From: Mycolicibacterium baixiangningiae
GTDB taxonomy: Bacteria; Actinomycetota; Actinomycetes; Mycobacteriales; Mycobacteriaceae
NCBI RefSeq assembly: GCF_016313185.1
Contig: NZ_CP066218.1
Location: 1,674,001 to 1,738,000 of the forward strand
DNA: 64,000 nt
Direction: 5' to 3'
In this document: piece after piece, positions 5,466-56,037 of the stretch
How the letters are laid out: the number at the start of each line of letters is the position of its first letter
Position numbering within the stretch: position 1 is the stretch's first letter
Made by a program: the position numbers and the translations under genes
Notes under the pieces: model-generated
Seen by the model: the letters and a program-made list of their open reading frames with translations, nothing else
The model's database searches: none
Told to the model about the DNA's origin: nothing

Positions 5466-8400
5466 TTACTCCGAAGCCGAGCTGCTGCTCGCCTTGTCGC
5501 TGCTCGCCTTGTCGCTGCTCGCCTTGCTGTCGCTGCTCGAGGAGCTGGACTCCTTCTTCGTCGCCGGCTTCTTGTTGGCACCGGTGGCGTTCTCGATCGA
5601 CTTCCGGACCCCGTTCGCCGCACCCTCGAGGTTCTTGCGGGTTTGGTTCGCCGCACCCTCGAGGTTCTTGCGGGTCTGGTTCGCCGCACCCTCGAGGTTC
5701 TTGCGGGTCTGGTTGAGCCCGTCGTTGATCTGCTTACCGGCCGTGTCAACCGCCTCCCGCAGCTCGACCTGCGCCTGTGTGACCTGCTTCTGCAGTTCCA
5801 CAGCCGGGTTGGCCGGGGCGGGGAGAGTGATTTGCGTCGGCAGCTTCGCCACCGGCTCATCCGCCGTCTCCGACGCGGGCACCTTGGCGACCGGTGCGCT
5901 GGAGGCTGCGGTGTCACCGACGCTCAGGTTGACCGATCGGCTGGAATCCGCAACGAGTGTGCTGCCGACGTCCTCGTTGGTCGTCCGGGCTCCGAGGTCG
6001 ATGCCGCCACCGATGCTGCCGCCGAGGCCCCCGAGCCCTGCCCGGATGGCTCCGCCGATCGCGGCGCTGATCGCACCGCCGATGTTGACGTCGCTGGCGG
6101 CTTCGGCGAAGGCCGAGACCGCCGCGAAGATGCCGGCCCCGATGGCCTGGGCCGCGTCGTTGCCGTTCTCCAGCGCGGAGATCGCGGTGGCGCGGAACGC
6201 CTCGACCACAGCGTTGGTGGCTGCGGCGATGTTGTTCACCGCGTCCACGCCGATCTCGGTGATCGCGTCGGCCGCCGCACCGAACTGTGCACCGGCTTCC
6301 GCGAAGGAGCCGATGAACTCGGCGGGGGTCGGCAGCCCTTCCAGGCTGGCGCCGATCGCCGCGGAGATCTCGCCACCGAGCTCGGCGAAGCCCTGCAGCG
6401 CTGCGGCGCCCAGGTCGAGGCCGGCCTCGAGACCCAACTGCAGCGATGCGCCGAGGTCGGCCAGCACCGGTCCGAGCGAGGCGGAGGCCTCGATCAGAGC
6501 GTCGATGAACACCGCCGGGCTGGGCAGGTTCTCGAGCGCGGCCTCGAACGCGGCGGCGAGCGTTCCGCCGCCTTCGACCAGTGCCTCCAGGAAGGCACCG
6601 AACTCGGCGCTGCCGATGTCGATGCCCGTCTCGATGGCGGCGGTCAGCGCGGCCGACAGGTTGCCGAGGGCTTCGGCGGTCGCATCCGCGATCGCGTTGA
6701 AGCCGGGCGCGAATGCTCCGATGGCGCCCTCGATCGCGGCGACGAACTCGGCCGGGGTCGGGAAGCCCTCAAGTGCTGCGTCGAAGGCCGCGGCCAACTC
6801 CGCTCCGGCGTTCACCAGCGCATCGGCGATGGCCCCTGCGTCCAGGTCGATCCCGAGCTCAAGAGCGAGCTCCAGCGCCGCCTCGAGGGAGGCGCCCAGG
6901 TCGACGCTGATCGAGCCCAGTGCCCCGACCAGTGCGTCGATGAACGCGTCCGGCGTCGGGAAGGCCCCCAGCGCGGCTTCGAACGCCGCGGCCAACTGGC
7001 CGCCCGCGTCCTGCAGCCCTGCGATGACCGCTTCGAAGGCGGTCTCGCCGACGGCCAGACCGGCTTCGATCGCCGCGGACAGCGCGCTCGAGAAGTTGGC
7101 GATCGCGATCCCGGTGGCATCCGCCAGCGCGGTGAGTCCGGGGATCACACCTTCCAGAGCCGCCTCGAGGGCGGCGACGAACTCGGCGGGCGACGGGAAC
7201 CCTTCGAGTGCACCGTCGAAGATCGCGCCCAGTTCGGCCCCTGCTTCCAGGAGTGCCTCGCCGATCGCGGTCGCGTCCAGGTTCAGACCCAGGTCGACGA
7301 TGACCGAGAGCGCGGCGTCGATGGCCGCGGACAGGTCGACGTCGATGGCGCCGAAGGCCGACACCAGGGCGTCGATGAACGCCTCGGGGGTCGGGAACGC
7401 CTCGATGGCGGCGTTGAACGCGGCGGCGAGATCACTACCGGCGTCCAGCAGACCCGCGACGATGGCGTCGAACGCTTCCACCCCTGCGGCGAAACCGGTC
7501 TCGAGCACTGCCGTCAGCGCGCCCGACAGGTCGGCGATCACCTCGGCGGTGGCGGCGGCGAGCGCATTGAAGCCCGGGATGACGCCCTCGAGGGCGGCAT
7601 TGAAGGCCGCGATGAACTCCGCCGGAGTCGGGAACCCTTCCAGCACACCGTTGAACAGTGCGGCCAGATCGGCGCCGGCTTCGATGAGCGCATCGGCGAT
7701 GACGCCGGCGTCCAGGTCGATGCCGAGTTCGATGAGGGCCTCGAGCGCCACGTCCAGCGCAGCGCCGAGGTCGACGTCGATGGAGCCGAAGGCGCTGACC
7801 AGTGCGTCGATGAACGCCTCGGGCGTCGGGAAGGCGGCGATCGCCGCGGCGAAGGCGGCCGAGAGCTCGCCGCCCGCGTCCTGAAGTGCGGCCACCACAG
7901 CCCCGAAGGCGTCCAGACCCGCGGCGAAACCGTCCTCCAGGGCAGCTGTCAGCGCACCCGACAGGTCGGTGAACGCCTCTGCAGCGGCTTCCGCCAGCAC
8001 GTTGAAGCCCGGGATCAGCCCGGCGATGGCTGCGTTGAACGCGACGAAGAACTCGGCCGGGGTCGGGAAGCCGTCGAGCACGCCCGCGAAGGCAGCGGCG
8101 AGGTCGGCGCCGGCCTCGATCAGAGCCTCGGCGATGGCGGTGGCGTCGATCTCGATGCCGAGGTCGACGATCACCTCGAGCGCTGCGTCCAGGGCTGCGC
8201 CCAGGTCGATGTCGATGGAGCCGAACGCGCTGACCAGCGCGTCGATGAAGGCCTCGGGCGTCGGGAAGGCCTCGATTGCCGCGGCGAATGCGGCGGCGAG
8301 CTCGCTACCCGCATCCAGCAGACCCGAGACGATGGCGTCGAAGGCCTCGATGCCGGCTGCTGCGCCCGCGGTGATGGCTGCGGCCAGCGCACCCGACACA

Positions 8401-46145: not shown

Positions 46146-46188
46146 GCCTGTCAGACCGGTCAGGCAGTATCGGTGTCGTAGCGCACAC

Positions 46189-46211
46189 CACGCGATAACG
46201 TAACTCGCGTG
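46189..46211. promoter_or_regulatory. Inverted repeat over the serine integrase promoter and start
   Basis: CACGCGA (46189-46195) and TCGCGTG (46205-46211) flank TAACGTAAC. TAACGT (46196-46201) fits a -10 and lies 7 nt before GTG 46209, which is inside the right arm. A protein bound to this dyad would block integrase transcription. It could alternatively belong to the attachment site. Confidence 0.5.
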
Positions 46212-47597
46212 AGAGTCGCTCTGTATCTGCGCCAGAGTCAGGACCGGTCGGGTGAACAGCTCGGCATCGACCGCCAACGTGAGGACTGCCTGCGGTTGAT
46301 TGCGGCTCGCGGTTGGACGATCGCGGCCGAGTTCGTCGACAACGACGTCTCAGCGCTGTCGCGGAAACCCCGACCCCAGTTCATCGCGATGATGGCGCGG
46401 GTCGACGCTGGCGAGTTCGATGTGATCGTTGCGCGACATATGGACCGACTTCTCCGCCGCCTCGCCGAGCTGGAGAGCGTGCTCGAGCGCTGCCAGTCGA
46501 CGAGCACAACGATCGTCACCGCGGCCGATGGCATCGACACCGGCACAGACGGTGGACGCACGGTGGCGCGCATCATGGCGTCCATCGCGCAAGGGGAGGT
46601 CGAGCGCAAAGCTGCCCGTCACCGCTCAGCATCCGTCCAGGCCGCCCAGCAAGGCCGCTGGGTCGGCGGAGGCCGGCCGTTCGGGTACGACGCGGACGGG
46701 ATGACGATCCGGCCCAACGAAGCGGCACTGATCCGGCAGGGCTTCGCAGACTTCCTCGCGGGGGAGTCGTTCGGTGAGATCGCTCGTCGGTGGGTAGCGG
46801 CCGGCTACAGGACGCCTCAGGGCAACGAATGGTCGCGCTATGCGGTACGTGACGTGCTGACGAACCCCCGGTACTGCGGGCTGCGACGACACGTACCTAA
46901 CGACCAGCTCGGCGCGATGCGTAAGAATCCCGAACTGGGGATCGTCGGGCCGGCGCAATGGGCCGCGATCGTGGACGAACCGACGTGGCGCGCCGTGGCG
47001 CGGACAATGGCGAGTGACGACCGCCGGCGGGCTCCGGTCGCCGCCAAAGGCCTACTGACGGGGGTTGGGCTCTGCGGTGTCTGTGGGCAAACGGTGCAGC
47101 GCAGCGGCGCTAGTGTCGCTGCGCCGCAGTACCGATGCCGATCGCGTCAGCACGTCACGCGGCGCGCTGAACCAGTCGACCAGTATGTGTCTGCCGTGGC
47201 GGTGGCAAGACTGGCTGCTCCCGACGCCGGCAGTCTGTGGACGACCGACACTCCCGACGCTGCCGAGCTGATGGCGGAAGCGGATGCATTACGTCGGCGC
47301 CGCGACGACCTGGCCGAGCTCGTCGCTGACGGAGCGATGACCCCGGCGCAATTCAGGTCGGCGAATGAACGGGTGCTGACGAAGCTCGGTGACGTCGAGA
47401 CCAGGATTGCAGCGTTTGGACGGTCATCGCCGCTTGCGATCGTCGCTGAGACCGACGTCGAAGCGGCGTGGGCCGGGCTATCTGTCGCGCAGCGGCGCAG
47501 CGTCATCGACGCGCTGATGGTGCCCGTGCTGCACCTGCCTGGCCGCGGAACGCGCACGTTCAATCCTGAAACCGTTGAAATCCGTTGGAAGGGTTGA
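46209..47597 (+). CDS. int: Large serine integrase (phiRv1/Bxb1 type)
   Basis: The 462-aa protein has a resolvase catalytic domain with nucleophile Ser10 (YLRQSQDRSGEQLGIDRQRE), a recombinase domain (about 150-260), a zinc-ribbon domain beginning CGVCGQTVQR and a coiled-coil region, and it ends TFNPETVEIRWKG, close to the family FNPxxVxVxW end. These features match mycobacterial phage serine integrases including that of phiRv1. It cuts and joins attP and attB by 2-bp-staggered breaks. It faces into the element from the gpgS side. Confidence 0.93.
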   Translation: MRVALYLRQSQDRSGEQLGIDRQREDCLRLIAARGWTIAAEFVDNDVSALSRKPRPQFIAMMARVDAGEFDVIVARHMDRLLRRLAELESVLERCQSTSTTIVTAADGIDTGTDGGRTVARIMASIAQGEVERKAARHRSASVQAAQQGRWVGGGRPFGYDADGMTIRPNEAALIRQGFADFLAGESFGEIARRWVAAGYRTPQGNEWSRYAVRDVLTNPRYCGLRRHVPNDQLGAMRKNPELGIVGPAQWAAIVDEPTWRAVARTMASDDRRRAPVAAKGLLTGVGLCGVCGQTVQRSGASVAAPQYRCRSRQHVTRRAEPVDQYVSAVAVARLAAPDAGSLWTTDTPDAAELMAEADALRRRRDDLAELVADGAMTPAQFRSANERVLTKLGDVETRIAAFGRSSPLAIVAETDVEAAWAGLSVAQRRSVIDALMVPVLHLPGRGTRTFNPETVEIRWKG

Positions 47598-47600
47598 GAA

Positions 47601-47981
47601 GTGGCGAATGTGTCGAAGTACCAGCGCGACGTAGTGATCCGCTGTAACCACGGCGTCGCGGACCTCGAGCCGGAGTATGTTTCGCGGTACCGCTTCATGG
47701 CGGAGCAGGAACTCTGGGCGCCGGTCGACCGGGGTAGCACCGAGTCGACGGACGTTGGTGGCGATGGCGGTGACGGCTGGTTCCCGGCCAAACCGGCGCC
47801 TGGCCCACGCCATAACCAGCAGAAAATTCGTTGCCGGTGCGGCAAGGAGCTGTCTATCACGACCGAGCGTCTTCAGTCGCTGCTCGCGATGGTTGCGCCT
47901 GCGGGGCAACCGGTCACGGTCACTGGGCTGCAACGCATCTTGGACCGCGGGTCTGCGTTGATGCCCAAGCGTCGGAAGTAG
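47601..47981 (+). CDS. Element protein of unknown function, 126 aa
   Basis: GTG 47601 is 3 nt after the integrase stop, so it is co-transcribed. The protein has an N-terminal IRCNHG, an acidic Gly/Asp-rich middle, IRCRCGKEL and a basic C-terminus (MPKRRK). The Cys/His pairs could bind zinc. As the small partner of a serine integrase it might be a directionality factor, but nothing in the sequence proves this. Confidence 0.6.
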   Translation: MANVSKYQRDVVIRCNHGVADLEPEYVSRYRFMAEQELWAPVDRGSTESTDVGGDGGDGWFPAKPAPGPRHNQQKIRCRCGKELSITTERLQSLLAMVAPAGQPVTVTGLQRILDRGSALMPKRRK

Positions 47982-48087
47982 CTGCTAGAGTTTTTGCATT
48001 GCCGCGGCATTGCGCCGCGAGCCGAGGTCGATTGCCTCAGGTCCAACCGGATCGCTCCGGGCTAGTTCGTCATGCCCAGAGGATCCG

Positions 48088-48315
48088 ATGTCTTCCCAGC
48101 TCGATCAGCCGTCCAAGCTCAGTCAGCGCGGCCGCGTCGCCGCGCTCACCCGGTCTCGTCCCGCTGACGACCCGGAGCTCGTCGAAGCGAAACGCAACCT
48201 GAAGGCGCTCAGCCTCGAGGAATACGTCCGCCGCGTCGTCTCTGAAGCGCCACCGCTCACCGACGAGCAGCGCGACCGAATCGCTGCACTTCTCCGCGCG
48301 GGCGGTGTCGCATGA
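48088..48315 (+). CDS. Small phiRv-type element protein, 75 aa
   Basis: ATG 48088 follows GAGGA at good spacing. The frame encodes a charged protein with VAALTRSRPADDPELVEAKR and a C-terminal EAPPLTDEQRDRIAALLR, a combination I associate with small proteins of mycobacterial and corynebacterial prophage-like elements. Its role is unknown; a regulatory or replication-accessory role is a guess. It overlaps the next gene by ATGA. Confidence 0.7.
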   Translation: MSSQLDQPSKLSQRGRVAALTRSRPADDPELVEAKRNLKALSLEEYVRRVVSEAPPLTDEQRDRIAALLRAGGVA

Positions 48316-48725
48316 CGCTGGAACGAAGAAACCCGGGCACTTCGGCCCGGGCCACCTCGACGACGCCAATCGCTACAGCCGAGCATAACGCCAACGACAC
48401 TGTGTTTCGCTTGGTCTCGCAGCAGGTGTGCTGGTGGGTCGTGCATGAGTTCGTGGCCCCGTATCTCGAGCGGGCCGGCGACTGGCCCATGGTCGGCACG
48501 CCGTCGTGGTGCCAGCTCGACGATTCCGACCCCGCGAAATGGGCCGCGGTCCTCGACGCCGCGCGGCATTGGGCGCTGCGCGTCGACACCTGCCAACACG
48601 CGCTGGCCGACGCCGGCGAGGCGATTTCAGCCGCCGAGGACTGGACGAAGGTCGCACGGATAATCAAGGGCCGCAGTGATTATCACGCGACACGGCCGTG
48701 GGCGAAGCGGATCGGTGGCCGGTGA
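48312..48725 (+). CDS. DUF2742-like phage protein, 137 aa
   Basis: A disordered N-terminus is followed by a conserved core (WWVVHEFVAPYLERAGDWPM, GTPSWCQLDDSDPAKWAAVL, ARHWALRVDTCQ) that I recognise as DUF2742, present in phiRv1 and phiRv2. Function is unknown. It is coupled by ATGA upstream and GTGA downstream to the ATPase gene, forming a tight early-type operon. Confidence 0.7.
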   Translation: MTLERRNPGTSARATSTTPIATAEHNANDTVFRLVSQQVCWWVVHEFVAPYLERAGDWPMVGTPSWCQLDDSDPAKWAAVLDAARHWALRVDTCQHALADAGEAISAAEDWTKVARIIKGRSDYHATRPWAKRIGGR

Positions 48726-49939
48726 ACGATCCCCGTCTCGTCGCTCGAGGCAAAGCTGTCTCAGAGCGGCTCGCTCACTTCGATGCCGGCGGCTTCCCTG
48801 TCCTCGAGACGGACTGGTCCGCCGACATTCCGTTGCCGCCAGAGCCGCCACCCGACGACGCGCGGGCGGCTCCGTCTCGTCGAGCGCTCGAATCCGACGA
48901 CGATTCGGTCATCGACGGTGCGCGGTTCATCCTCGATCAGCCGTCCGGGATCCCGGCACTGTGGGGCCGCGACGCGCAGGTGTTGTGGGCCGAGGGTGAA
49001 GCACTCATGATCGCGGGGCCGCAGGGCGTCGGAAAGACCACGCTCGCCGGCCAGCTCGTGCGCGCACTGCTCGTCGGCGGTGAAGTGCTCGGCTTGCCGG
49101 TCCAGCAGAGCGGAGGCCGGATTCTGTACCTCGCCATGGACCGGCCACGCCAGATCAGCCGATCACTGAGCCGCCAGTTCACCGAAGCCGACCGCGACGT
49201 CCTCGCCGAGCGTTTGGTGATCCGGCCCGGCCCGCCCTCGGCGAACATGGCAGCGCAACCGACGCTGCTCGTCGGGATGGCCGAGCACTACGGCGCCGAC
49301 GTGGTAATCGTCGACAGTCTCAAGGACGCGGCGATCGGCCTGTCCGAGGACGAAGTCGGAGCCGGTTACAACCGCGCCCGCCAGCTCGTCCTGGCCGCCG
49401 GCGTGCAACTCGCCGAGTTGCACCACGTCGTGAAGCGCAGCACCGGCAACGACCGACCATCGTCACCGGTTGACGCGATCTACGGGTCCACGTGGCTGAC
49501 GTCGGGGGCCGGGTCGATCGTGCTGCTGTCCGGCGAACCGGGTGACCCAATCGTCGGCTTCCGACACGTCAAGCAACCCGGCGACGAAGTGGGGCCGTGG
49601 CGGCTGCTGCACGACGCCGCGGCCGGTGTGCTGAGCGTCGAGCACAGCGTCGATCTCGTCGCTCTTGTGAAGGCCGGCGGACCCGATGGGCTCACGGCTA
49701 AGGGCGCCGCGCAGGCGATCACCGAGAAGCCCAATCCGACACGCGCCGACGTCGAGAAGGCGCGCCGCAAACTCGAAAGGCTGGCCGCGGACGGTGTTCT
49801 CGTGGCGGTGTCCGGCGACGATCGGCGGCAGACGACCGCATGGTTCCTCGCCGCGTCAGGCACGTCACGCCACGTCACGGATGACAGCGAAACCGCAGGT
49901 CAGGGACGTCACGGCCTGGTTGGGGATCACGAATCATGA
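48722..49939 (+). CDS. RecA-fold (RepA/AAA_25-like) ATPase of the element
   Basis: The 405-aa protein has Walker A GPQGVGKT (99-106), Walker B VVIVDS (194-199), a sensor-like SGAGSIVLLSG, and a C-terminal winged-helix-like segment (TAKGAAQAITEKPNPTRADV). Such RepA/DnaB-like ATPases drive replication of small mobile elements. The last 60 nt of the gene contain the first two or three copies of an iteron array that continues downstream, which strengthens the replication idea. GTG 48722 overlaps the upstream stop by GTGA. Confidence 0.82.
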   Translation: MNDPRLVARGKAVSERLAHFDAGGFPVLETDWSADIPLPPEPPPDDARAAPSRRALESDDDSVIDGARFILDQPSGIPALWGRDAQVLWAEGEALMIAGPQGVGKTTLAGQLVRALLVGGEVLGLPVQQSGGRILYLAMDRPRQISRSLSRQFTEADRDVLAERLVIRPGPPSANMAAQPTLLVGMAEHYGADVVIVDSLKDAAIGLSEDEVGAGYNRARQLVLAAGVQLAELHHVVKRSTGNDRPSSPVDAIYGSTWLTSGAGSIVLLSGEPGDPIVGFRHVKQPGDEVGPWRLLHDAAAGVLSVEHSVDLVALVKAGGPDGLTAKGAAQAITEKPNPTRADVEKARRKLERLAADGVLVAVSGDDRRQTTAWFLAASGTSRHVTDDSETAGQGRHGLVGDHES

Positions 49940-50018
49940 GGCACGTCACGGATTCGCTATTTGCGCTGGTCAGCACGTCACGCACCACGTCACGCACGTC
50001 ACGAAACGGCACGTCACG
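49861..50018. repeat. ori: Eight CACGTCACG-type iterons, candidate replication origin
   Basis: Nine-base units start at 49861, 49871, 49905 (GACGTCACG), 49942, 49974, 49986, 49995 and 50010. Seven are identical CACGTCACG and all point the same way. They straddle the ATPase stop codon and fill the following gap. Directly repeated 9-mers beside a Rep-type ATPase are the usual arrangement of iteron origins. The large hairpin at 50018-50048 follows directly. Confidence 0.7.
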
Positions 50019-50048
50019 CCACCCACCCCTACGGGGTGAGTGGGTGGC
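50018..50048. terminator. Large hairpin after the iterons
   Basis: GCCACCCAC and GTGGGTGGC form a perfect 9-bp stem. The interior can also pair as CACCCC/GGGGTG. It may end the early transcript before the capsid-side operon, or form part of an origin. Confidence 0.6.
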
Positions 50049-50107
50049 GTGAGCACGGCACCGTGACGACCCCTGAGACAGACCCCCGAGACCACTGAGG
50101 AGAACCG

Positions 50108-50491
50108 ATGATCCCCGAGTACGAAGACGTCCCAGGCGCGGCCGCCGCGGCACGCGCGACAGTCGCCCGCGAGTACGCGCTGCGCCGCATCGCTGCCCAG
50201 CTCGACGACACCCGGCCAACGTTCTGCCGCCCGACGACCGACGCCGAGGACGCGGAGATCCGGGCGCAAGCAGTGCGCACCGTCGAGCGCGGCGCCCAGT
50301 ACGCCGGCCTGACGCTCGCCGAGGTCGACGCGGCCGAACTCGAGGTCCGGCGGGTGTACCTCGACGCCTCGGGCCGCGAGTACCTGCTGTCGGTCGCCCG
50401 TCACGAGATCACGCTGCTGTCGATGTCGGAACCGGACGGCCCTGGCCCCGATGCCGAGGGTTACCGCTTCGACGGCGGGGCGGCGCTGTGA
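50108..50491 (+). CDS. Element protein of unknown function, 127 aa
   Basis: ATG 50108 follows AGGAGA. The product is acidic and helical (AAAAARATVAREYALRRIAA, AEDAEIRAQAVRTVERGAQYA), with no motif I recognise. It starts the capsid-side operon, and its stop overlaps the next start by GTGA. By position it might be an assembly or packaging accessory. Confidence 0.6.
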   Translation: MIPEYEDVPGAAAAARATVAREYALRRIAAQLDDTRPTFCRPTTDAEDAEIRAQAVRTVERGAQYAGLTLAEVDAAELEVRRVYLDASGREYLLSVARHEITLLSMSEPDGPGPDAEGYRFDGGAAL

Positions 50492-50901
50492 TCGCCGCCG
50501 TCACCGGTGTGGTGCTCTCGCCTGAGGACGCCGAGTTCATCGTCGGAGCGCTCGACGAGTTCACGCGCGTGCTGGCTGAGCGGCGTTCGAGTCCGTCGTC
50601 GCGGCTGGCCGGCAGCATCGAGCAGCTACGCCGCGCGACACGAAAGTGTGGTGCCCTCAGCGCGAACGCCACACCCGGCCGGAGTTCGTCAGCAGACGAA
50701 ACCGAGACAGGTCACGATGCCAGCTATGCGACCTGCTCGACCGTCGAAGCTGCGCGGATTCTTGGTGTCGGCGCGAGCGCTGTCCGCAACAGCGCTCAGC
50801 GCAATCCGCGCAAGCTCGGCAGTCGCCGCGTCGGCAACCGGTGGACGCACGACCTTGCCCGCGTCGAATACCACGCTGCGCGCCGGAAGGGTCGCCGCTG
50901 A
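50488..50901 (+). CDS. HTH (MerR/excisionase-like) DNA-binding element protein
   Basis: The 137-aa protein has an N-terminal helical part and a C-terminal helix-turn-helix: STVEAARILGVGASAVRNSA, then GSRRVGNRWTHDLARVEYHA, with the wing layout of excisionase/MerR-like domains. It could be a regulator of the capsid genes or an excisionase. phiRv elements carry similar small HTH proteins next to the capsid genes. It overlaps its neighbours by 4 nt and 1 nt. Confidence 0.7.
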   Translation: MIAAVTGVVLSPEDAEFIVGALDEFTRVLAERRSSPSSRLAGSIEQLRRATRKCGALSANATPGRSSSADETETGHDASYATCSTVEAARILGVGASAVRNSAQRNPRKLGSRRVGNRWTHDLARVEYHAARRKGRR

Positions 50902-51479
50902 TGCCTGAAGTCACCGTCGTTTCGATACCGAACGTGGATCTCGTCCGAGTCGGCGTCCACGAAATCTCAACCGGCACATGGCGAGTTGACGCTGCTGACC
51001 TCGCAGACGCCGTAGCCGCCCACCGGGCCGGTGTCGTGCGCGCCCCGGTCGTCAAGCTCGGGCACACGGGGATGGGTGACGCCGCGCCGGCTCTCGGACG
51101 CGTCACGAACCTACGGCTCGCCGAAGGCGGCGCCGTCCTGGCCGCCGACTTTGAAGGCGTCCCGAAAGCCGTCGCCGCGGTCATCCGCAGCGCGTACCCG
51201 CAACGCAGCGTCGAGGGATGGACGAACTTCACCGACCCCGCCAGCGGCCGGACCTACCGGTTCGTCCTCACCGCGGTCGCGCTGCTCGGCGCGGAGATGC
51301 CCGGAGTCGACGGCCTGACCGACCTTGGTGACGTCGCAGCGCTCTACGGTGTCGCCGCCAAACGCGTCGCGATCGCGGGGTCGACGACCCCAGCCACCTA
51401 CGACGACACGGGGCGCTCACGCGCCGTCCAAGTCGCCGCCGCACGACGGCGACGCAACCAACGAACGATCGGAGTCTGA
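50901..51479 (+). CDS. Phage capsid maturation protease (Mu gpI-like N-terminal part)
   Basis: The 192-aa protein shows the pattern of Mu I-type prohead proteases: GVHEISTGTWRVDAADLADA, then VRAPVVKLGHT with a conserved His, LRLAEGGAVLAADFEGVPK and YPQRSVEGW. These proteases cleave the scaffold and capsid delta domain during head assembly. In Mu, protease and scaffold form one ORF; here the scaffold-like part is a separate gene two positions downstream. ATG 50901 overlaps the preceding stop by 1 nt. Confidence 0.75.
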   Translation: MPEVTVVSIPNVDLVRVGVHEISTGTWRVDAADLADAVAAHRAGVVRAPVVKLGHTGMGDAAPALGRVTNLRLAEGGAVLAADFEGVPKAVAAVIRSAYPQRSVEGWTNFTDPASGRTYRFVLTAVALLGAEMPGVDGLTDLGDVAALYGVAAKRVAIAGSTTPATYDDTGRSRAVQVAAARRRRNQRTIGV

Positions 51480-51481
51480 AC

Positions 51482-52369
51482 ATGCCGAACGCCCTGCTGC
51501 CGAAGCTCAACGGCCGCGAGCTGACAGTCGACGTCGCGCTGAGGACGCCGAGCGTCATCGCCGCTCGGATCGCGAAGCTCGCCGACGATCAGCTGCTGCT
51601 GCCGCAGTTCACGCACCAGCTCGGCGCGGCCGTGCAGGGCGGCGGAATGCTCTACAGCACGGTCACTGCCGCGAATTACTACACCCGCGACGACGTCGAG
51701 CAGCGCGCCCCCGGATCCCAGTACCGCGAGACCGCCGGCGTGGACCCCACCCCGCAGCTCGCGGCCGTCGAGGACTGGGGCGCGAAGGTTCAGGTTCCGG
51801 ACGAGTACATCATCCGCAACAACGTCTCCTACATGGATCAGCAGACGACCCAGCTCGCCAACACGATCGCCCGCAAGCTCGATGAGCGGTTGCTCGCCAA
51901 GCTCAGCGAAGCGTTCAACGATGGCTCGAACACCGTTCCGGGCAACAGCTGGTTGGACCTCGTGACGGTCGGCGATCCCGCGACGCTCACCCCGTCCGCC
52001 GCACTGCCATCGGCCGACCTCGCCGCTGCCCAGCTCGCGGCCGACATGCAGGAACTCGGCGTGAAACACGACCTCCTCGTGGTGCATCCGCAGGAAGCGT
52101 TCGCGCTGAAAGTGGCGTACGCCGACAAGCTCGACGACATGCTGAAGTCGGCCGGCGTCAGTTTATTCACCAACCCGCGTCTGACAGCCGGCACAGCGTT
52201 CGCGCTCCAGAAGGGCACAGTCGGGACGGTCGGCTTCGAGATCGGACTGACCGTCGACGTCATCGACGACCGGCACACCCGCTCCAAGTGGGTGCAGGCC
52301 TACGTCGTCCCGGCGATCGCCATCGACCGAATCCAGGCCGCCAAGAAGCTGACCGGTCTCGCCTCGTAA
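51482..52369 (+). CDS. HK97-fold major capsid protein
   Basis: The 295-aa protein starts 3 nt after the protease stop. The segments TRDDVEQRAPGSQYRETAGV, YIIRNNVSYMDQQTTQLANT, MQELGVKHDLLVVHP and the C-terminal TRSKWVQAYVVPAIAIDRIQ follow the order expected of the E-loop, spine helix and A-domain of a phage major capsid protein. Subunits would form the T-number shell of the element's particle. The protein is intact, with no sign of decay. Confidence 0.85.
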   Translation: MPNALLPKLNGRELTVDVALRTPSVIAARIAKLADDQLLLPQFTHQLGAAVQGGGMLYSTVTAANYYTRDDVEQRAPGSQYRETAGVDPTPQLAAVEDWGAKVQVPDEYIIRNNVSYMDQQTTQLANTIARKLDERLLAKLSEAFNDGSNTVPGNSWLDLVTVGDPATLTPSAALPSADLAAAQLAADMQELGVKHDLLVVHPQEAFALKVAYADKLDDMLKSAGVSLFTNPRLTAGTAFALQKGTVGTVGFEIGLTVDVIDDRHTRSKWVQAYVVPAIAIDRIQAAKKLTGLAS

Positions 52370-52403
52370 GCGCCGCCCACCCACCCCGGAAGGAACCGTC
52401 AAC

Positions 52404-52883
52404 ATGGCAATCACGCTGGACGACACGCAGACCGCCGAGCTACTCACCGCGCTCGGACTGCCCGCCGACACCACCGACCCGGACCTCGTCGTCGAGACCG
52501 TCAAGGATCTCGCCGCGCAGGTGGCCGACCTCGACCCCGAGAAGCCGTCCACCGTCGCAGCCGCCGCCAAACGCGCCGGCATGGAGCTGCTCGACAAGGA
52601 AACCGCCGAAGCGCTGCGCCGCGACGCCTCTGAAGGCCGCAAGATGGTCGCGGCCGCCACACAACAGCGCATCGAAGCATCCGTCGAAGACGCCATCCGC
52701 AAGGGCAAGATCACCCCGGCGCGCCGTAAGCACTGGGTCAACCTCATCGGCGCCGACCCCGGCATGGCCGACATCCTCGCCAGCGTGCCCAACGAGACCG
52801 CCGCCCCTATGTCCGAACTCGGCCACGGCCAGAACCCCGAACCCGGCGCCGAACTCACCGAGCCCGCCGCCTGGTTCCACTGA
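52404..52883 (+). CDS. Capsid scaffold-like protein (Mu gpI C-terminal-like)
   Basis: The 159-aa helical, Ala/Glu/Lys-rich protein contains ASVEDAIRKGKITPARRKHW followed by IGADPGMADILASVPNETAA, a pattern I know from the C-terminal scaffold part of Mu gpI-type protease-scaffold proteins. It would nucleate capsid assembly and be degraded by the protease. GGAAGG precedes ATG 52404. It is separated from its usual protease partner by the major capsid gene. Confidence 0.65.
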   Translation: MAITLDDTQTAELLTALGLPADTTDPDLVVETVKDLAAQVADLDPEKPSTVAAAAKRAGMELLDKETAEALRRDASEGRKMVAAATQQRIEASVEDAIRKGKITPARRKHWVNLIGADPGMADILASVPNETAAPMSELGHGQNPEPGAELTEPAAWFH

Positions 52884-53262
52884 CCCACACAGGCCCGCGG
52901 CCCTGCAACGCCGCGCGGGTCGGCGCGCACCGCTGCCACGGGCAGGCGGCTCTCAGAGCGGCGGTGCGCCACCCCCCGGAAATTATCGGACCCACCCCCC
53001 TCCCGACTCCCGAGCGGTGAGTTGCGAGTTTTTATTTTTCCGAGCGCCGCGATTTTTGGGCGGTGCTGATGGCGGGGCGCGGGCCCGGCGCGGAACGGAC
53101 GAAACCACCCCCAATAGCGCAGGTCAGCGACCTTTATCGGGCGACTTGTCGGTCGGCTCCGCACAATGTGGGTATGACAGGCGCACGGGATGTGCGACGC
53201 ACCGGACTCGGCGGATGTCACACTGATGGCGTCGAGTCCTGGCTGAGGGGTGGAGAGGTCAG
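52884..53262. other. 379-bp intergenic stretch: terminator plus possible packaging/terS relic
   Basis: CCCGCG (52894-52899) and CGCGGG (52914-52919) form a hairpin after the scaffold gene. Further on are C-runs, a GGAAATTATCGG segment and T-rich stretches near 53030-53056. ATG 53069 then opens a frame beginning MAGRGPGAERTKP, which resembles the start of small terminase subunits in actinophages, but it shows no terminase sequence afterwards. It may be the remnant of a cos/terS region. This is a weak inference. Confidence 0.35.
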
Positions 53263-53451
53263 ATGACGAGAACTGAGACGTTGACGGACGACGAACTGCG
53301 AGCTCGCCGCAGGGCGATCCTCGACAAGCTCGGCATGTCGTTCGAGGAGCTTCGTGACCGCGCTAACAGCTATGCTCTCGCCGGGGAGGAGCACGAGGCG
53401 TGGGAACAGCTTGAGTCGATCGCGTTCCTGCTGGGAGAAACCCGCGCCTGA
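53263..53451 (+). CDS. 62-aa small protein, first gene of an uncharacterised two-gene cassette
   Basis: ATG 53263 follows GGAGAGG. The protein is helical: LTDDELRARRRAILDKLGMS, FEELRDRANSYALAGEEHEA, WEQLESIAFLLGE. I have the impression that similar small proteins occur widely in actinobacteria next to a homologue of the following gene. The size and pairing recall an antitoxin or adaptor, but there is no DNA-binding motif. The next gene starts 9 nt downstream. Confidence 0.7.
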   Translation: MTRTETLTDDELRARRRAILDKLGMSFEELRDRANSYALAGEEHEAWEQLESIAFLLGETRA

Positions 53452-53459
53452 CGAGGGCG

Positions 53460-54161
53460 ATGACACTGACGCATGATGAGTTCAACGACGAAGTAGACGA
53501 TTTTGTCGGCGACGTCATGAACGCCGTCAATTGCCTCGAACCGGGCGAGGGATGGTTGATTGATGTGGCGATGGCGTCGGCCGACCGGCTGAGATCGGTC
53601 GTCGATGCGACGCTTCCGCTGCGGGGGCCGGGAGACGGCTCGGACGGCGGTCTCGCAGAGCTGAGCGCGACCTACAGGCTGTGCGTGGATTCGTACGGAA
53701 CCCACATCGCCGTCGAACACTCGTCGTTCGTCCTGAAGGCGACGATCGAGCGAGCCCCGATCATCCGTTGGGATTACGACCGCAGACCGAACAACAAGCC
53801 GCGGTCTCACGTCCAGGTGACCGCCCAGCGCGGCGCGTTGTCGCACATCTTGTCTCGCCTGGGACACAAGACGCCGCACAACATCGAGTCGCTGCACATC
53901 CCAATGGGCGGCGAGCGATTCCGACCCTGCCTCGAAGACGTGATCGAGTTCCTCATCCGTGACTGCGGCTTCAAGGGCAGCGCGGGCTGGAAGCAGGCGA
54001 TCCAAGATGGCCGCGCACGGTGGCGACGCATACAGACCCGCGCGGTCGTGCGTGACTCACCGGAATGTGCTGTCGCCGAGCTGGAATCGCTCGGTTACAA
54101 GGTGATCCCACCGGAGGCGGGCGCGCGTGACGAGAGGCTCGACCGGCTCACCGCGTGGTGA
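53460..54161 (+). CDS. 233-aa protein of unknown function, second gene of the cassette
   Basis: The protein has a central beta-rich core with IIRWDYDRRPNNKPRSHVQV, AQRGALSHILSRLGHKTPHN, then IESLHIPMGGERFRPCLEDV and IEFLIRDCGFKGSAGWKQAI, and ends in VAELESLGYKVIPPEAG. Conserved-looking Arg, His, Asp and Glu residues suggest an enzymatic or nucleic-acid-binding site, but I cannot assign a family. It converges with the tyrosine integrase 3 nt away. Position beside an integrase suggests cargo such as defence, toxin or superinfection control. Confidence 0.7.
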   Translation: MTLTHDEFNDEVDDFVGDVMNAVNCLEPGEGWLIDVAMASADRLRSVVDATLPLRGPGDGSDGGLAELSATYRLCVDSYGTHIAVEHSSFVLKATIERAPIIRWDYDRRPNNKPRSHVQVTAQRGALSHILSRLGHKTPHNIESLHIPMGGERFRPCLEDVIEFLIRDCGFKGSAGWKQAIQDGRARWRRIQTRAVVRDSPECAVAELESLGYKVIPPEAGARDERLDRLTAW

Positions 54162-54164
54162 ACA

Positions 54165-55199
54165 TCAGTCGGCCGTCGCTGCCATCGCTGCTGCCCGGAC
54201 TTCGTCGTCATCGACAGCTGTGTATCGCTCGGTCGTCGCGATCGAAGCGTGACCGAGCAGCTGCTGCACTGCTCGCAGGTTCCGGCTACCGCGGTACGCG
54301 CGGGTGGCGAACCGATGCCGCAGTTTGTGCATCGACCAGCCGTCCGGGAGTGCCGCGGCGACGAGCTTGCCGACCTGGTGCTCGCCGATGTGGCCGCCGA
54401 CGCCGGTGGGGAATAGCCAGCCCGATGCCGGCATTCCCGCGGTATGGCCGGCCGCCCCGCGTCGCAGCACTTCGGCCAGCGCGTCGCTGATCGGCACGAC
54501 GCGCGTCTTGCCGCCCTTGCCATGCACGACGAGCTGCGCGCCGCCGATGCCCTCGACGACGTCGCGGGTGTGCACTCGGGCCACCTCGGCGCGGCGCATC
54601 CCGACTTCGGCGGCGAGCCGCATCATCAGCGTGACCCGCGGATCGGCCTTGGCGAGCGCCGTCCGCCACGCATCGTCGGGAACCGGCCGCGGCACGGCGG
54701 CCGGAATCCGAACGGACGGAAGCGCATCGGGGAGATACTCCGGCACCCGGCCCGTGCGGTACGCCCACGCGAAGAACCCACGCGCCGCGCTGCGGTAGAA
54801 CTTCCGTGTCTCTGGCTTCCAGTCCTGCCGACCGAACCAGTCGACGAGCCGCTCAGCCGTCACGTCGCCCGGTGGGCATCGCAGCGCGCGAGCGATGCGT
54901 GTGAGGGACTTGCGCCGCGCGTCGATCGTTCGCGCGGTGTGGCCCGCGGCCGCGAGGTGCAGGAGGTAGGCGCTCGTCATCTCCCGCCACGACGCGGGCA
55001 TCTGGGACCGGTCCGGCCCCGGTTGCCGCGCCTGGTGCGCCTCGCGGAGATACGTTTCGAGCGCGGTGAGCCCGCCGGCGAACACCCGGCCGGTTGCGTC
55101 GCGTAGCTCGAGCTCCGCGCCACGCTGCACCGTCCGTAAACCGAGCGCGGTCGCCTGCCGACGCGCGATCCGCACTCGGCTCTCCGTGCTGGCGGTCAC
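54165..55199 (-). CDS. Tyrosine recombinase/integrase
   Basis: The 344-aa protein has an N-terminal SAM-like core-binding domain (about 65-160) and a complete catalytic domain: Arg in GMRRAEVARVH (202-203), Lys in HGKGGKTR (about 231), HKLR with H291 and R294, His317 in LLGHAS and nucleophile Tyr326 in TERYTAV. All catalytic residues are present. It starts at GTG 55199, overlapping the upstream 102-aa gene by GTGA. Longer in-frame starts run through that gene and are unlikely. It faces inward from the DivIVA side, opposite the serine integrase. Confidence 0.9.
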   Translation of the reverse strand: MTASTESRVRIARRQATALGLRTVQRGAELELRDATGRVFAGGLTALETYLREAHQARQPGPDRSQMPASWREMTSAYLLHLAAAGHTARTIDARRKSLTRIARALRCPPGDVTAERLVDWFGRQDWKPETRKFYRSAARGFFAWAYRTGRVPEYLPDALPSVRIPAAVPRPVPDDAWRTALAKADPRVTLMMRLAAEVGMRRAEVARVHTRDVVEGIGGAQLVVHGKGGKTRVVPISDALAEVLRRGAAGHTAGMPASGWLFPTGVGGHIGEHQVGKLVAAALPDGWSMHKLRHRFATRAYRGSRNLRAVQQLLGHASIATTERYTAVDDDEVRAAAMAATAD

Positions 55200-55504
55200 C
55201 GCAGGCCTTCGAGGGCGTCGGCGGCGTCGAGCAGGGCCGCGGCGAGCTGGCGTGACGTCGAGGCGGTCAGCTCGAGGCTCGCGCCGCCGGGGTAGACGAC
55301 GATCTGCGGCTCGGCGACACGGCCATCTGCATATTGCACACCCTCGACGGCCACCACCGCCCCAGCTGCGTCGTGACGCGACCACGTCAAGAATCGCATG
55401 AGGTCCTCCGGGTGGGTTCCCGGTCCGGGCCAGTCGCCGGCCACAGCGCCGACAGGTACGGGTATGCGTCGAATATTGCTGATGGCGTCTTCTGACGGAG
55501 GCAT
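55196..55504 (-). CDS. 102-aa protein upstream of the tyrosine integrase
   Basis: The acidic 102-aa protein contains DLMRFLTWSRHDAAGAVVAV, QIVVYPGGASLELT and a C-terminal helix STSRQLAAALLDAADALEGL. Similar small proteins precede integrases in some actinophages, to my recollection. It is coupled to the integrase by GTGA. TAGGTT (55516-55511) lies 6 nt before ATG 55504, so the integrase operon message is probably leaderless. Confidence 0.65.
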   Translation of the reverse strand: MPPSEDAISNIRRIPVPVGAVAGDWPGPGTHPEDLMRFLTWSRHDAAGAVVAVEGVQYADGRVAEPQIVVYPGGASLELTASTSRQLAAALLDAADALEGLR

Positions 55505-55555
55505 GCGCAGAACCTAGATTGGTAGATTGCCGCAGGTCAAGTGGCATGCGCTCCG

Positions 55556-55570
55556 CGGGTAAGTTACCCG
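55556..55570. promoter_or_regulatory. Perfect 15-bp palindrome upstream of the integrase operon
   Basis: CGGGTAA-G-TTACCCG is perfect around one central base and lies about 40 bp upstream of the -10 element of the leftward operon. It looks like a repressor or activator site, or part of the attachment site. Confidence 0.55.
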
Positions 55571-55713
55571 TCACACGCCTAGTCGTTGCGCTCAGCGGTT
55601 AGCTGACAGCCAGTTGCGGCGCCACACCGGTCGGCCGGCGCGCAGGCACCGCCGGCGTGTCGGTGGGGTCGTGAATGATGTGAGACGAGACCAATCCGTT
55701 CCTGTGTGATTGT

Positions 55714-56037
55714 GTGGTGCTTGTCGTGACGCTGATACTGCTCTACCTGGTGGTGCTCGTCCTGGTGGCCGTCGTGCTGTTCGGGGTGGGCAGTGTGTTG
55801 TTCGGCCGTGGCGAGGCGTTGCCTCCGCTACCTCACGGCACCACCGCGACGGTGCTGCCGGCCTCGGGGGTCACCGGCGCCGACGTCGACGCCCTGAAGT
55901 TCACGCAGACGCTGCGCGGCTACAAGGCCAGCGAGGTCGACTGGGTGCTCGACCGGCTCGGACAAGAGATCGACGCGCTGCGCGGTGAACTGGCGGCGGT
56001 ACACGCGGCCGCCCGACCGGCCGAGGAGTCCCCGTGA
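55714..56037 (+). CDS. DivIVA-domain membrane-anchored protein (Rv1209-like)
   Basis: The 107-aa protein has one N-terminal membrane helix (LLYLVVLVLVAVVLFGV) followed by the short DivIVA-type segment LKFTQTLRGYKASEVDWVLDRL and a helix. Such proteins are thought to act in polar growth or division. It is coupled by GTGA to the tag gene. GTG 55714 or 55717 starts it. The native upstream neighbour gpgS has been displaced by the element, so its original promoter region may have changed. Confidence 0.85.
   Translation: MVLVVTLILLYLVVLVLVAVVLFGVGSVLFGRGEALPPLPHGTTATVLPASGVTGADVDALKFTQTLRGYKASEVDWVLDRLGQEIDALRGELAAVHAAARPAEESP

Follow-up and report, generated by a model that had tools for sequence, protein, structure and literature searches.

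A 64,000-nt window of the chromosome of Mycolicibacterium baixiangningiae (contig NZ_CP066218.1) carries, between gpgS and a gene for a DivIVA-domain protein, a 9,548-bp element that is probably an integrated satellite of the cohesive-end site (cos) type, which would build its own shell on the portal of a helper phage and have it filled by the helper's terminase. All results reported here are computational, and coordinates are those of the 64,000-nt window. We attribute the element to a satellite because it has a phage-type cos, its major capsid protein (MCP) belongs to a group apart from those of phages, 33 loci of the same kind show neither the large terminase subunit (TerL) nor a portal in the DNA available, the shell genes are under purifying selection, and the insertion site is empty in all 22 comparable relatives. 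The same five lines of evidence support the proposal of the initial annotation that the element makes its own capsid and borrows packaging and tails.

Shell genes without portal-vertex genes

The shell operon encodes a 127-aa protein, a winged-helix protein, a head maturation protease, the MCP, and a scaffold. Its genes have no internal stops and are translationally coupled through GTGA and TGATG overlaps, in agreement with the initial annotation, which had read the capsid-side genes as intact and tightly coupled. The integrase and the replication-type ATPase that it listed are likewise open reading frames (ORFs) without internal stops, and the iterons are where they were expected (Table 1). 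His48 and Ser96 of the protease (numbered along the aligned stretch) are invariant in all 31 aligned proteases. Comparison of the MCP sequence with solved structures gave no meaningful match.

When the 14 ORFs of the element were scanned against Pfam, PHROGs, and profiles from seven annotated phages, no credible match to a terminase, portal, connector, HNH, or tail protein was obtained. The sole match to a tail-named family (PF17594, to the scaffold) had an E-value of 0.031 and did not reach the cut-off of that family, and the eight ORFs to which neither an enzymatic nor a structural function could be assigned are, at 62–233 aa, too small for a large terminase or a portal. The absence of intact terminase, portal, and tail genes had been noted before; moreover, no terminase remnant was found anywhere in the window.

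The winged-helix protein belongs to a family of which 13 of 14 members match HTH_17, the window's own copy being unmatched at an E-value of 0.01. Its AlphaFold2 (AF2) model (predicted local distance difference test, pLDDT, 79.5; predicted template modeling score, pTM, 0.41) combines a helical hairpin with a winged helix at the C terminus. The gene stands before the MCP gene even in loci that lack protease and scaffold, which ties it to the shell genes; the product most likely either regulates the shell operon or favors the element's cos. Its best PDB sequence match is the weak one (E-value 0.15) to Gp37 in 4j2n, which we take to be a mycobacteriophage excisionase. The copy in one related locus (L018) matches phrog_57, a profile of the small terminase subunit (TerS), with an E-value of 6.7e-8, which prompted a reading of the protein as TerS. 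We dropped this reading for lack of support: the match is confined to the HTH, and the domain order differs; against the TerS proteins of six related phages, hhalign gave a probability of 0.14 per cent.

A family of shell modules in Mycobacteriales

The MCP family is patchily distributed: it is present in 15 of the 148 searched genomes of the genus, including that of the element itself. In one of them (G077), the MCP match was flagged with a TGA, yet a single ORF there is matched by the profile across the entire MCP. A further 22 loci came from public genomes and 10 from viral contigs, some of them common to both. These 32 loci, 14 loci from the genus, the window, and the seven annotated phages were scanned (54 loci in all) with profiles for the winged helix, protease, decoration protein, MCP, scaffold, TerS, TerL, portal, connectors, and tail proteins. 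Removal of nine duplicates left 45 non-redundant loci, of which 33 are satellite-type and 12 phage-type. Neither TerL nor portal was detected in any of the 33 satellite-type loci, in the 7–20 kb of DNA available per locus, some of it cut by contig ends; TerL or portal was found in 11 of the 12 phage-type loci, and the twelfth (L091) is cut at its start.

The two types also differ in layout. The scaffold gene lies downstream of the MCP gene in 28 of the 33 satellite-type loci and in none of the 12 phage-type loci, whereas it lies upstream in all 12 phage-type loci and in no satellite-type locus, so that no locus among the 45 combines both arrangements. A winged-helix gene is situated just upstream of the module in 32 of the 33 satellite-type loci. 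The exceptions to the satellite layout are at contig ends (L019, L068, and L083) or are minimal loci (L078, L082, and L087).

In a phylogeny of 44 MCP sequences (the short L083 sequence was omitted), 30 of the 32 satellite MCPs form one group without phages, with a support of 92/90 that falls short of the strict threshold, and a separate group (support 100/100) holds the eight closest MCPs of phages. The family of shell modules is an old one, with members in genera that include Mycobacterium, Gordonia, Williamsia, Rhodococcus, and Tsukamurella, and four members from IMG/VR are contigs of 11.2–11.5 kb. In eight chosen pairs of relatives, the ratio of nonsynonymous to synonymous polymorphism (pN/pS) was below 1 in all 37 gene comparisons in which it is defined (0.04–0.78; a 38th comparison had no changes). 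The shell genes are under purifying selection. One 11-kb viral contig of the family (L087, 1–11166) encodes a large protein that by eye resembles an ESX-secreted polymorphic toxin, as described for candidate phage-inducible chromosomal islands (PICIs) of M. abscessus.

A cos-like site behind the scaffold gene

The genome ends of four related phages have a stereotyped cos, which consists of a C-rich/G-rich hairpin, a dyad around the cut (e.g., CTGAC...GTCAG), and a T-run; in phage Mbo4, a 14-nt 3' overhang is annotated at this site. A similar structure lies approximately 80 bp downstream of the scaffold gene of the element. Because the structure was first spotted by eye, it was tested in three ways.

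In a leave-one-out analysis, each locus was searched with a model from which its own site and all sites >72 per cent identical had been removed (threshold, E < 0.01). Under this scheme, 28 of the 33 satellite-type loci were positive, compared with one of 33 reversed decoys. The best match was on the coding strand in 27 of the 28 positives, and in the remaining one (L062), the coding-strand site came second. Three of the five misses are contigs that end within 609 bp of the MCP gene (L019, L028, and L083). A model of 25 sites with the window left out (R1) has one significant match in the 6.18-Mb genome, which is the site at 52967–53033 (E-value 1.5e-7; next match, 0.16). In a search with nhmmer, the site spans 52960–53036 (E-value 1.3e-6), and its leave-one-out E-value is 2.8e-6. 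Across the 148 genomes of the genus, the cos model matches in 17, and 11 of these matches are satellite loci (15 genomes have the MCP). In the other matching genomes, two sites lie beside scaffold remnants (L111 and L112); three (L109, L110, and L113, in G036, G016, and G097) have no shell-module profile match beside them and are possible footprints of lost satellites or prophages; and the neighborhood of the site in G103 was left out.

Within satellites, the cos mostly lies 1.5–2.4 kb after the MCP start (range 1.1–3.2 kb), but in L018, L022, and L067 the best site is located ~2 kb before the MCP. In L022, two cos-like sites, at 7752 and 11377 in coding-strand orientation, flank one shell module, and in L062 (6922) and L063 (11346) a second match lies on the opposite strand ~800 bp after the first. 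A 14/14 match of L024 to the overhang of phage JustASigh had led to recognition of the structure; nevertheless, short exact overhang matches were dropped as evidence of a cos, because scans with 14-mers at two mismatches match many places by chance. A hand-made pattern, found on the coding strand in 19/33 loci, on the other strand in 0/33, and in 9/330 first-order Markov resamples of the coding strand, was replaced by the profile tests.

Separation of protease and scaffold

The head genes of satellites show a REARRANGEMENT relative to those of phages. In the seven annotated phages, a single gene encodes protease and scaffold; next come a small protein, of the decoration type or named as a scaffold, and the MCP. 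In satellites, protease (the N-terminal part) and scaffold (the C-terminal part) are encoded by a gene each, with the scaffold behind the MCP, and no satellite has both in a single ORF. The scaffold of the window matches 183 phage records, and in 60 of them sampled at even steps, all 60 matches fall within one gene type. The product is named capsid or head maturation protease in 59 of the 60, and the remaining one, Schnabeltier gene 4, bears such a name in its RefSeq copy. For the middle of the phage protein (approximately residues 165–380 of Schnabeltier gp4), tblastn gave no match in satellites.

The split is seen for two types of protease, the phrog_3894 type of the window and the ClpP-like type of the M. 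abscessus prophage prophi100A-2, homologs of which stand alone in L028 and L029; in L077, the profile scan gave no protease match. A phage connector-like gene lies between MCP and scaffold in L075, and pieces of a connector lie behind the scaffold in L017 and L068, which is consistent with descent of the module from a phage.

Integration site

The initial annotation had placed the insertion at 46146–55713, which is nearly right; the attachment (att) cores, at 46174 and 55722, put it at 46174–55727. When attB and attP were rebuilt from both junctions and all centers were tested, the best dyad centered on the same GT of the core in both (arm matches around the GT: 15/20 for attB and 12/20 for attP), which fits the expectation for a large serine integrase. 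Both the serine and the tyrosine recombinase are located within the att sites. A comparison of related strains, proposed earlier as a check, found the site empty: gpgS was matched in 22 of 24 searched genomes of the genus, and in all 22 the DivIVA-domain gene directly follows gpgS and the element is absent. The closest of these relatives (L031) has the exact core, uninterrupted, and the second closest (L032) departs from it at one base.

In the alignment to relatives, the GTG with which the DivIVA-domain gene starts overlaps the right core (55714–55727 region). The insertion therefore preserves the start codon and exchanges all DNA upstream of it, and expression of the gene may depend on the element.

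Proposed mechanism and candidate helpers

We propose that upon infection by a cos phage, the serine integrase would excise the element, and the ATPase and iterons would amplify it. The portal of the helper would then nucleate a shell built from the element's MCP, protease, and stand-alone scaffold, and this shell would probably be so small that it takes one unit of ~9.5 kb; HNH protein, TerS, and TerL of the helper would cut at the element's cos and fill the shell; and connectors and a tail from the helper would complete the particle. With the shell given by the element and everything at the portal vertex by the helper, the element would stay compatible with the helper's motor and tail. The size of the unit, 9.5 kb compared to 45–56 kb in the phages, argues for a smaller shell, because cos packaging fills the head with whole units, typically one, as stated for the SaPIbov5 helper system (PMC8569155). 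By analogy with phage-inducible chromosomal minimalist islands (PICMIs), for which concatemers in full-size heads are described (PMC10803314), the element might instead be packaged as concatemers in heads of full size. That the capsid is smaller and that a helper is needed are inferences.

The locus that most closely points to a helper is L018, in which a stretch of 285 bp, covering the inferred cos and the beginning of TerS, has 86 per cent identity to prophi100A-2; this likeness suggests a helper. A 120-bp query of the L018 cos matches 14 phage records, all of them M. abscessus prophages, and at least 10 of the 14 are among the 20 listed matches to the MCP of the window. Judged from these similarities, this set of prophages is likely to contain the helpers of L018. 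Against phages, blastn gave five weak matches for the cos of L024 (E-values 0.005–0.8) and none for that of L029.

Weighing the alternatives

Several observations count against the proposed explanation. Three loci (L078, L082, and L087) carry only the winged-helix and MCP genes of the shell, an inventory that fits a role in co-assembly better. The MCP of L078 groups with phages (support 95/94) and that of L082 is a long unplaced branch, so that satellites overall are not one clade. The decoration gene, present in 27 of the 33 loci, is missing from the element and from its closest relative, L016. Some relatives are decayed: in L069 the protease match is spread over two frames, the scaffold is followed by a TerS-like fragment, and no cos was found, and the scaffold of L112 is interrupted. 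L069 and L088 offered enough DNA yet gave no cos in the leave-one-out search. The cos of the window is itself among the weaker ones, with a 4-bp dyad and a T-run broken by an A; a phage-only model (six sites) finds only its hairpin, on the other strand, with an E-value of 0.15; and blastn of this cos against 50,697 phage records gave no match. Finally, no helper was found for the element in a search limited to portal and TerL of the prophi100A-2 type, other prophage types not being searched: TerL of prophi100A-2 had no match in the element's genome, in a search without a positive control, and its portal had none there and was found in one of the 148 genomes of the genus, which is not satellite-bearing. 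The helper may come from outside.

The TerS-like fragment of L069 (10699–10842) is possibly a trace of a captured cos region, since cos adjoins TerS in phages. In L111, the cos-like site stands beside a scaffold fragment, and in L112 beside a scaffold that is divided in two by a 504-aa ORF, possibly a transposase. Both are decayed satellites, with no MCP match in the DNA examined.

The element could alternatively be a satellite whose MCP, like the Ccm protein of SaPIbov5, co-assembles with the helper's MCP and shrinks the helper's capsid, with packaging by the helper via cos. SaPIbov5 indeed couples a helper cos with an MCP homolog, and Ccm alone is described as forming no capsids (PMC8569155, PMC5052747); the three loci with an MCP and no protease or scaffold match would also agree with this explanation. 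We nevertheless consider it unlikely for the element, because the window and most relatives retain their own protease and scaffold under purifying selection, and the MCP is near full length (295 aa compared to 301–313 aa in the seven annotated phages).

A decayed prophage, in which an integrase and part of a head module were left immobile by the loss of terminase, portal, and tail, would account for the missing genes, the decoration gene among them, and would have counterparts in L069, L111, and L112. However, the reduced and rearranged module recurs in 33 loci (with the scaffold behind the MCP in 28) and mostly in a phage-free MCP group, the ORFs of the element are intact with pN/pS below 1, all 22 relatives with a gpgS match have an empty site, and a phage-type cos has been kept beside the module. 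Neither decayed genes nor close nucleotide similarity to a phage, which define defective prophages, were found, and megablast of the whole element against the 50,697 phage records gave no match. The statement of the initial annotation that the insertion is not obviously a decaying prophage is borne out, and we regard decay as quite improbable.

It is slightly less probable again that the shell operon simply ends in an intrinsic terminator of the ordinary kind, taken here for a cos, and that packaging occurs otherwise or not at all, a possibility that overlaps with the other alternatives. A hairpin followed by a T-run is also what a terminator looks like, and the site is just downstream of the operon. 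Yet the structure was first read from phage genome ends, with an annotated 3' overhang at the Mbo4 site; the model is significant at one place in 6.18 Mb and not at hundreds; the best site is upstream of the MCP in L018, L022, and L067; and L018 has its 285 bp in common with a phage cos region. Lastly, shell proteins that lack a portal could assemble into closed shells, as encapsulins do, and serve as a host-domesticated compartment or as an anti-phage device that poisons helper assembly with capsid proteins, but the integrase, att sites, replication genes, cos, and patchy distribution (15/148 genomes) speak for mobility and make this highly improbable.

Gene content of the element

The features of the element are collected in Table 1. 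The ATPase is 54 per cent identical, over 76 per cent of its length, to helicases of ~110-kb mycobacteriophages. The iteron ACGTCACG occurs 15 times in the window, with eight copies on one strand within 157 bp, over and behind the 3' end of the ATPase gene. Directly after the iterons, near 50016–50050, lies a strong hairpin of 14 pairs, interrupted by a bulge, which is a candidate for an origin structure or a terminator. The nearest phages differ among the capsid, integrase, and helicase genes, and the element is therefore a mosaic.

The tyrosine recombinase and the cos-like site are features of the insertion beyond those given in the initial annotation. The position of the tyrosine recombinase and its 102-aa partner inside the serine att sites suggests an older integration system or a dimer resolver. 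In L016 (15456–16636), a related pair is in reverse orientation, and no serine-integrase match was found in the 20 kb of that locus. DUF2742 was not found in 14 control genomes, so that no link to phiRv1 can be drawn from it. The capsids of phiRv1 and phiRv2 are presumably of another MCP type.

Table 1. Features of the element, by position in the 64,000-nt window.
Feature	Position	Strand	Evidence
attL core TGTCGT, serine integrase crossover	46174..46179	.	core common with 55722; empty sites of relatives
Large serine integrase, 462 aa	46209..47597	+	PF00239, PF07508, phrog_95; 56% to phage Curiosium integrase
Hypothetical protein, 126 aa	47601..47981	+	ORF; no credible family match
Small hypothetical protein, 75 aa	48088..48315	+	phrog_24177 (unknown function)
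DUF2742 protein, 137 aa	48312..48725	+	PF10888, E 6.7e-38
AAA/RecA-type ATPase, probable replication helicase, 413 aa	48698..49939	+	phrog_6012 DNA helicase, E 6e-118
Iterons, 8 copies, candidate replication origin	49862..50018	+	repeat as given in the text; followed by hairpin
Hypothetical protein, 127 aa, first gene of shell operon	50108..50491	+	homolog in L016 only, among 14 related genus loci searched
DNA-binding protein, helical hairpin and C-terminal winged helix, 137 aa	50488..50901	+	family HTH_17; AF2 model
Head maturation protease without scaffold domain, 192 aa	50901..51479	+	phrog_3894 residues 4-171 of 458
MCP, 295 aa	51482..52369	+	PF25209; phrog_1650, E 7e-47; 38.6% to Gordonia phage Schnabeltier MCP
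Scaffold protein, 159 aa	52404..52883	+	phrog_2976 residues 234-378 of 394; C-terminal part of phage protease-scaffold protein
cos-like packaging site	52967..53033	+	profile model from which the window was left out
Small hypothetical protein, 62 aa	53263..53451	+	ORF; no credible family match
Hypothetical protein, 233 aa	53460..54161	+	no family match
Tyrosine recombinase, 344 aa, GTG start	54165..55199	-	PF00589, E 2.7e-24; phrog_1
Small protein upstream of tyrosine recombinase, 102 aa	55196..55504	-	homolog beside L016 tyrosine recombinase; weak DUF6907, E 0.047
attR core TGTCGT	55722..55727	.	at GTG start of DivIVA-domain gene, per alignment to relatives

Relation to known satellites and significance

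The element is integrated, carries its own integrase and replication genes, and lacks a full set of virion genes, as phage satellites in general do. As described in the sources, the nearest known mechanism is that of SaPIbov5 and other Staphylococcus aureus pathogenicity islands (SaPIs) of the cos type, which combine a helper-type cos with an MCP homolog of their own and obtain portal, tail, and packaging from the helper (PMC8569155, PMC5052747). This likeness is one of mechanism as described and not of compared gene sequences; the cos of the element is of the type of related phages (E-value 1.5e-7), and blastn linked it to no specific helper. In those descriptions, Ccm is the sole satellite protein found in procapsids and helper MCP is needed, whereas the MCP of the element comes with its own protease and scaffold.

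Capsid-forming PICIs (cf-PICIs) share with the element an MCP and a head maturation protease of their own and use helper tails, but are described as also encoding portal, connectors, HNH, and both terminase subunits (PMC10690885). Since MCP and protease were found in the element, and portal, connectors, TerS, TerL, and HNH were not, it is not a cf-PICI, and the earlier comparison with capsid-forming PICIs has to be amended.

A 2023 study described mycobacterial regions with integrase and MCP, including phiRv1 and phiRv2, as candidate PICIs, and left open whether phages induce or transduce them (PMC10654092). The element likewise has an integrase and an MCP. In the text of that study, the candidates are defined solely by these two genes, some carry terminase and scaffold genes, and some have a serine integrase; its main text nowhere uses the words "portal", "protease", or "cos site". 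PMC3986857 also describes small elements of mycobacteria, some of which carry terminase and portal. The idea of a satellite is therefore not new in itself. Within the literature covered by our search, which lay outside most subscription papers and the supplements of PMC10654092, we found no report that these elements carry a cos, that they regularly lack vertex genes, or that their protease–scaffold gene is split.

The phages Schnabeltier, Mbo4, prophi100A-2, and JustASigh have homologous MCP and scaffold, a protease of the same or another type, and a cos, but unlike the element they encode terminase, portal, connectors, and tail and have protease and scaffold as one gene upstream of the MCP. 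P4, in turn, differs from the element in remodeling its helper's shell with Sid, and it is not known to have an MCP or protease of its own. The P2/P4 pair is similar in that a small satellite is cos-packaged by the helper's terminase (PMC10690885), and in P2 the scaffold is described as fused to the protease (PMC6893505).

On an evenly balanced judgment, these elements may constitute a new class of cos satellites that is spread over Mycobacterium, Gordonia, Williamsia, Rhodococcus, and Tsukamurella. Its members would encode a complete alternative shell (MCP, scaffold, protease, and mostly a decoration protein) and leave the whole portal vertex and the DNA motor to the helper; splitting of the phage protease–scaffold gene and placement of the scaffold behind the MCP would act as a size or dosage switch for small capsids.

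The cos in most elements of the family tells how their DNA would be packed and predicts the ends of the packaged molecule. The division into a shell without a vertex, together with the split protease–scaffold gene, offers a natural experiment on the determinants of capsid size. Such satellites might interfere with phages of the same cos and head type, which would matter for work with mycobacterial phages.

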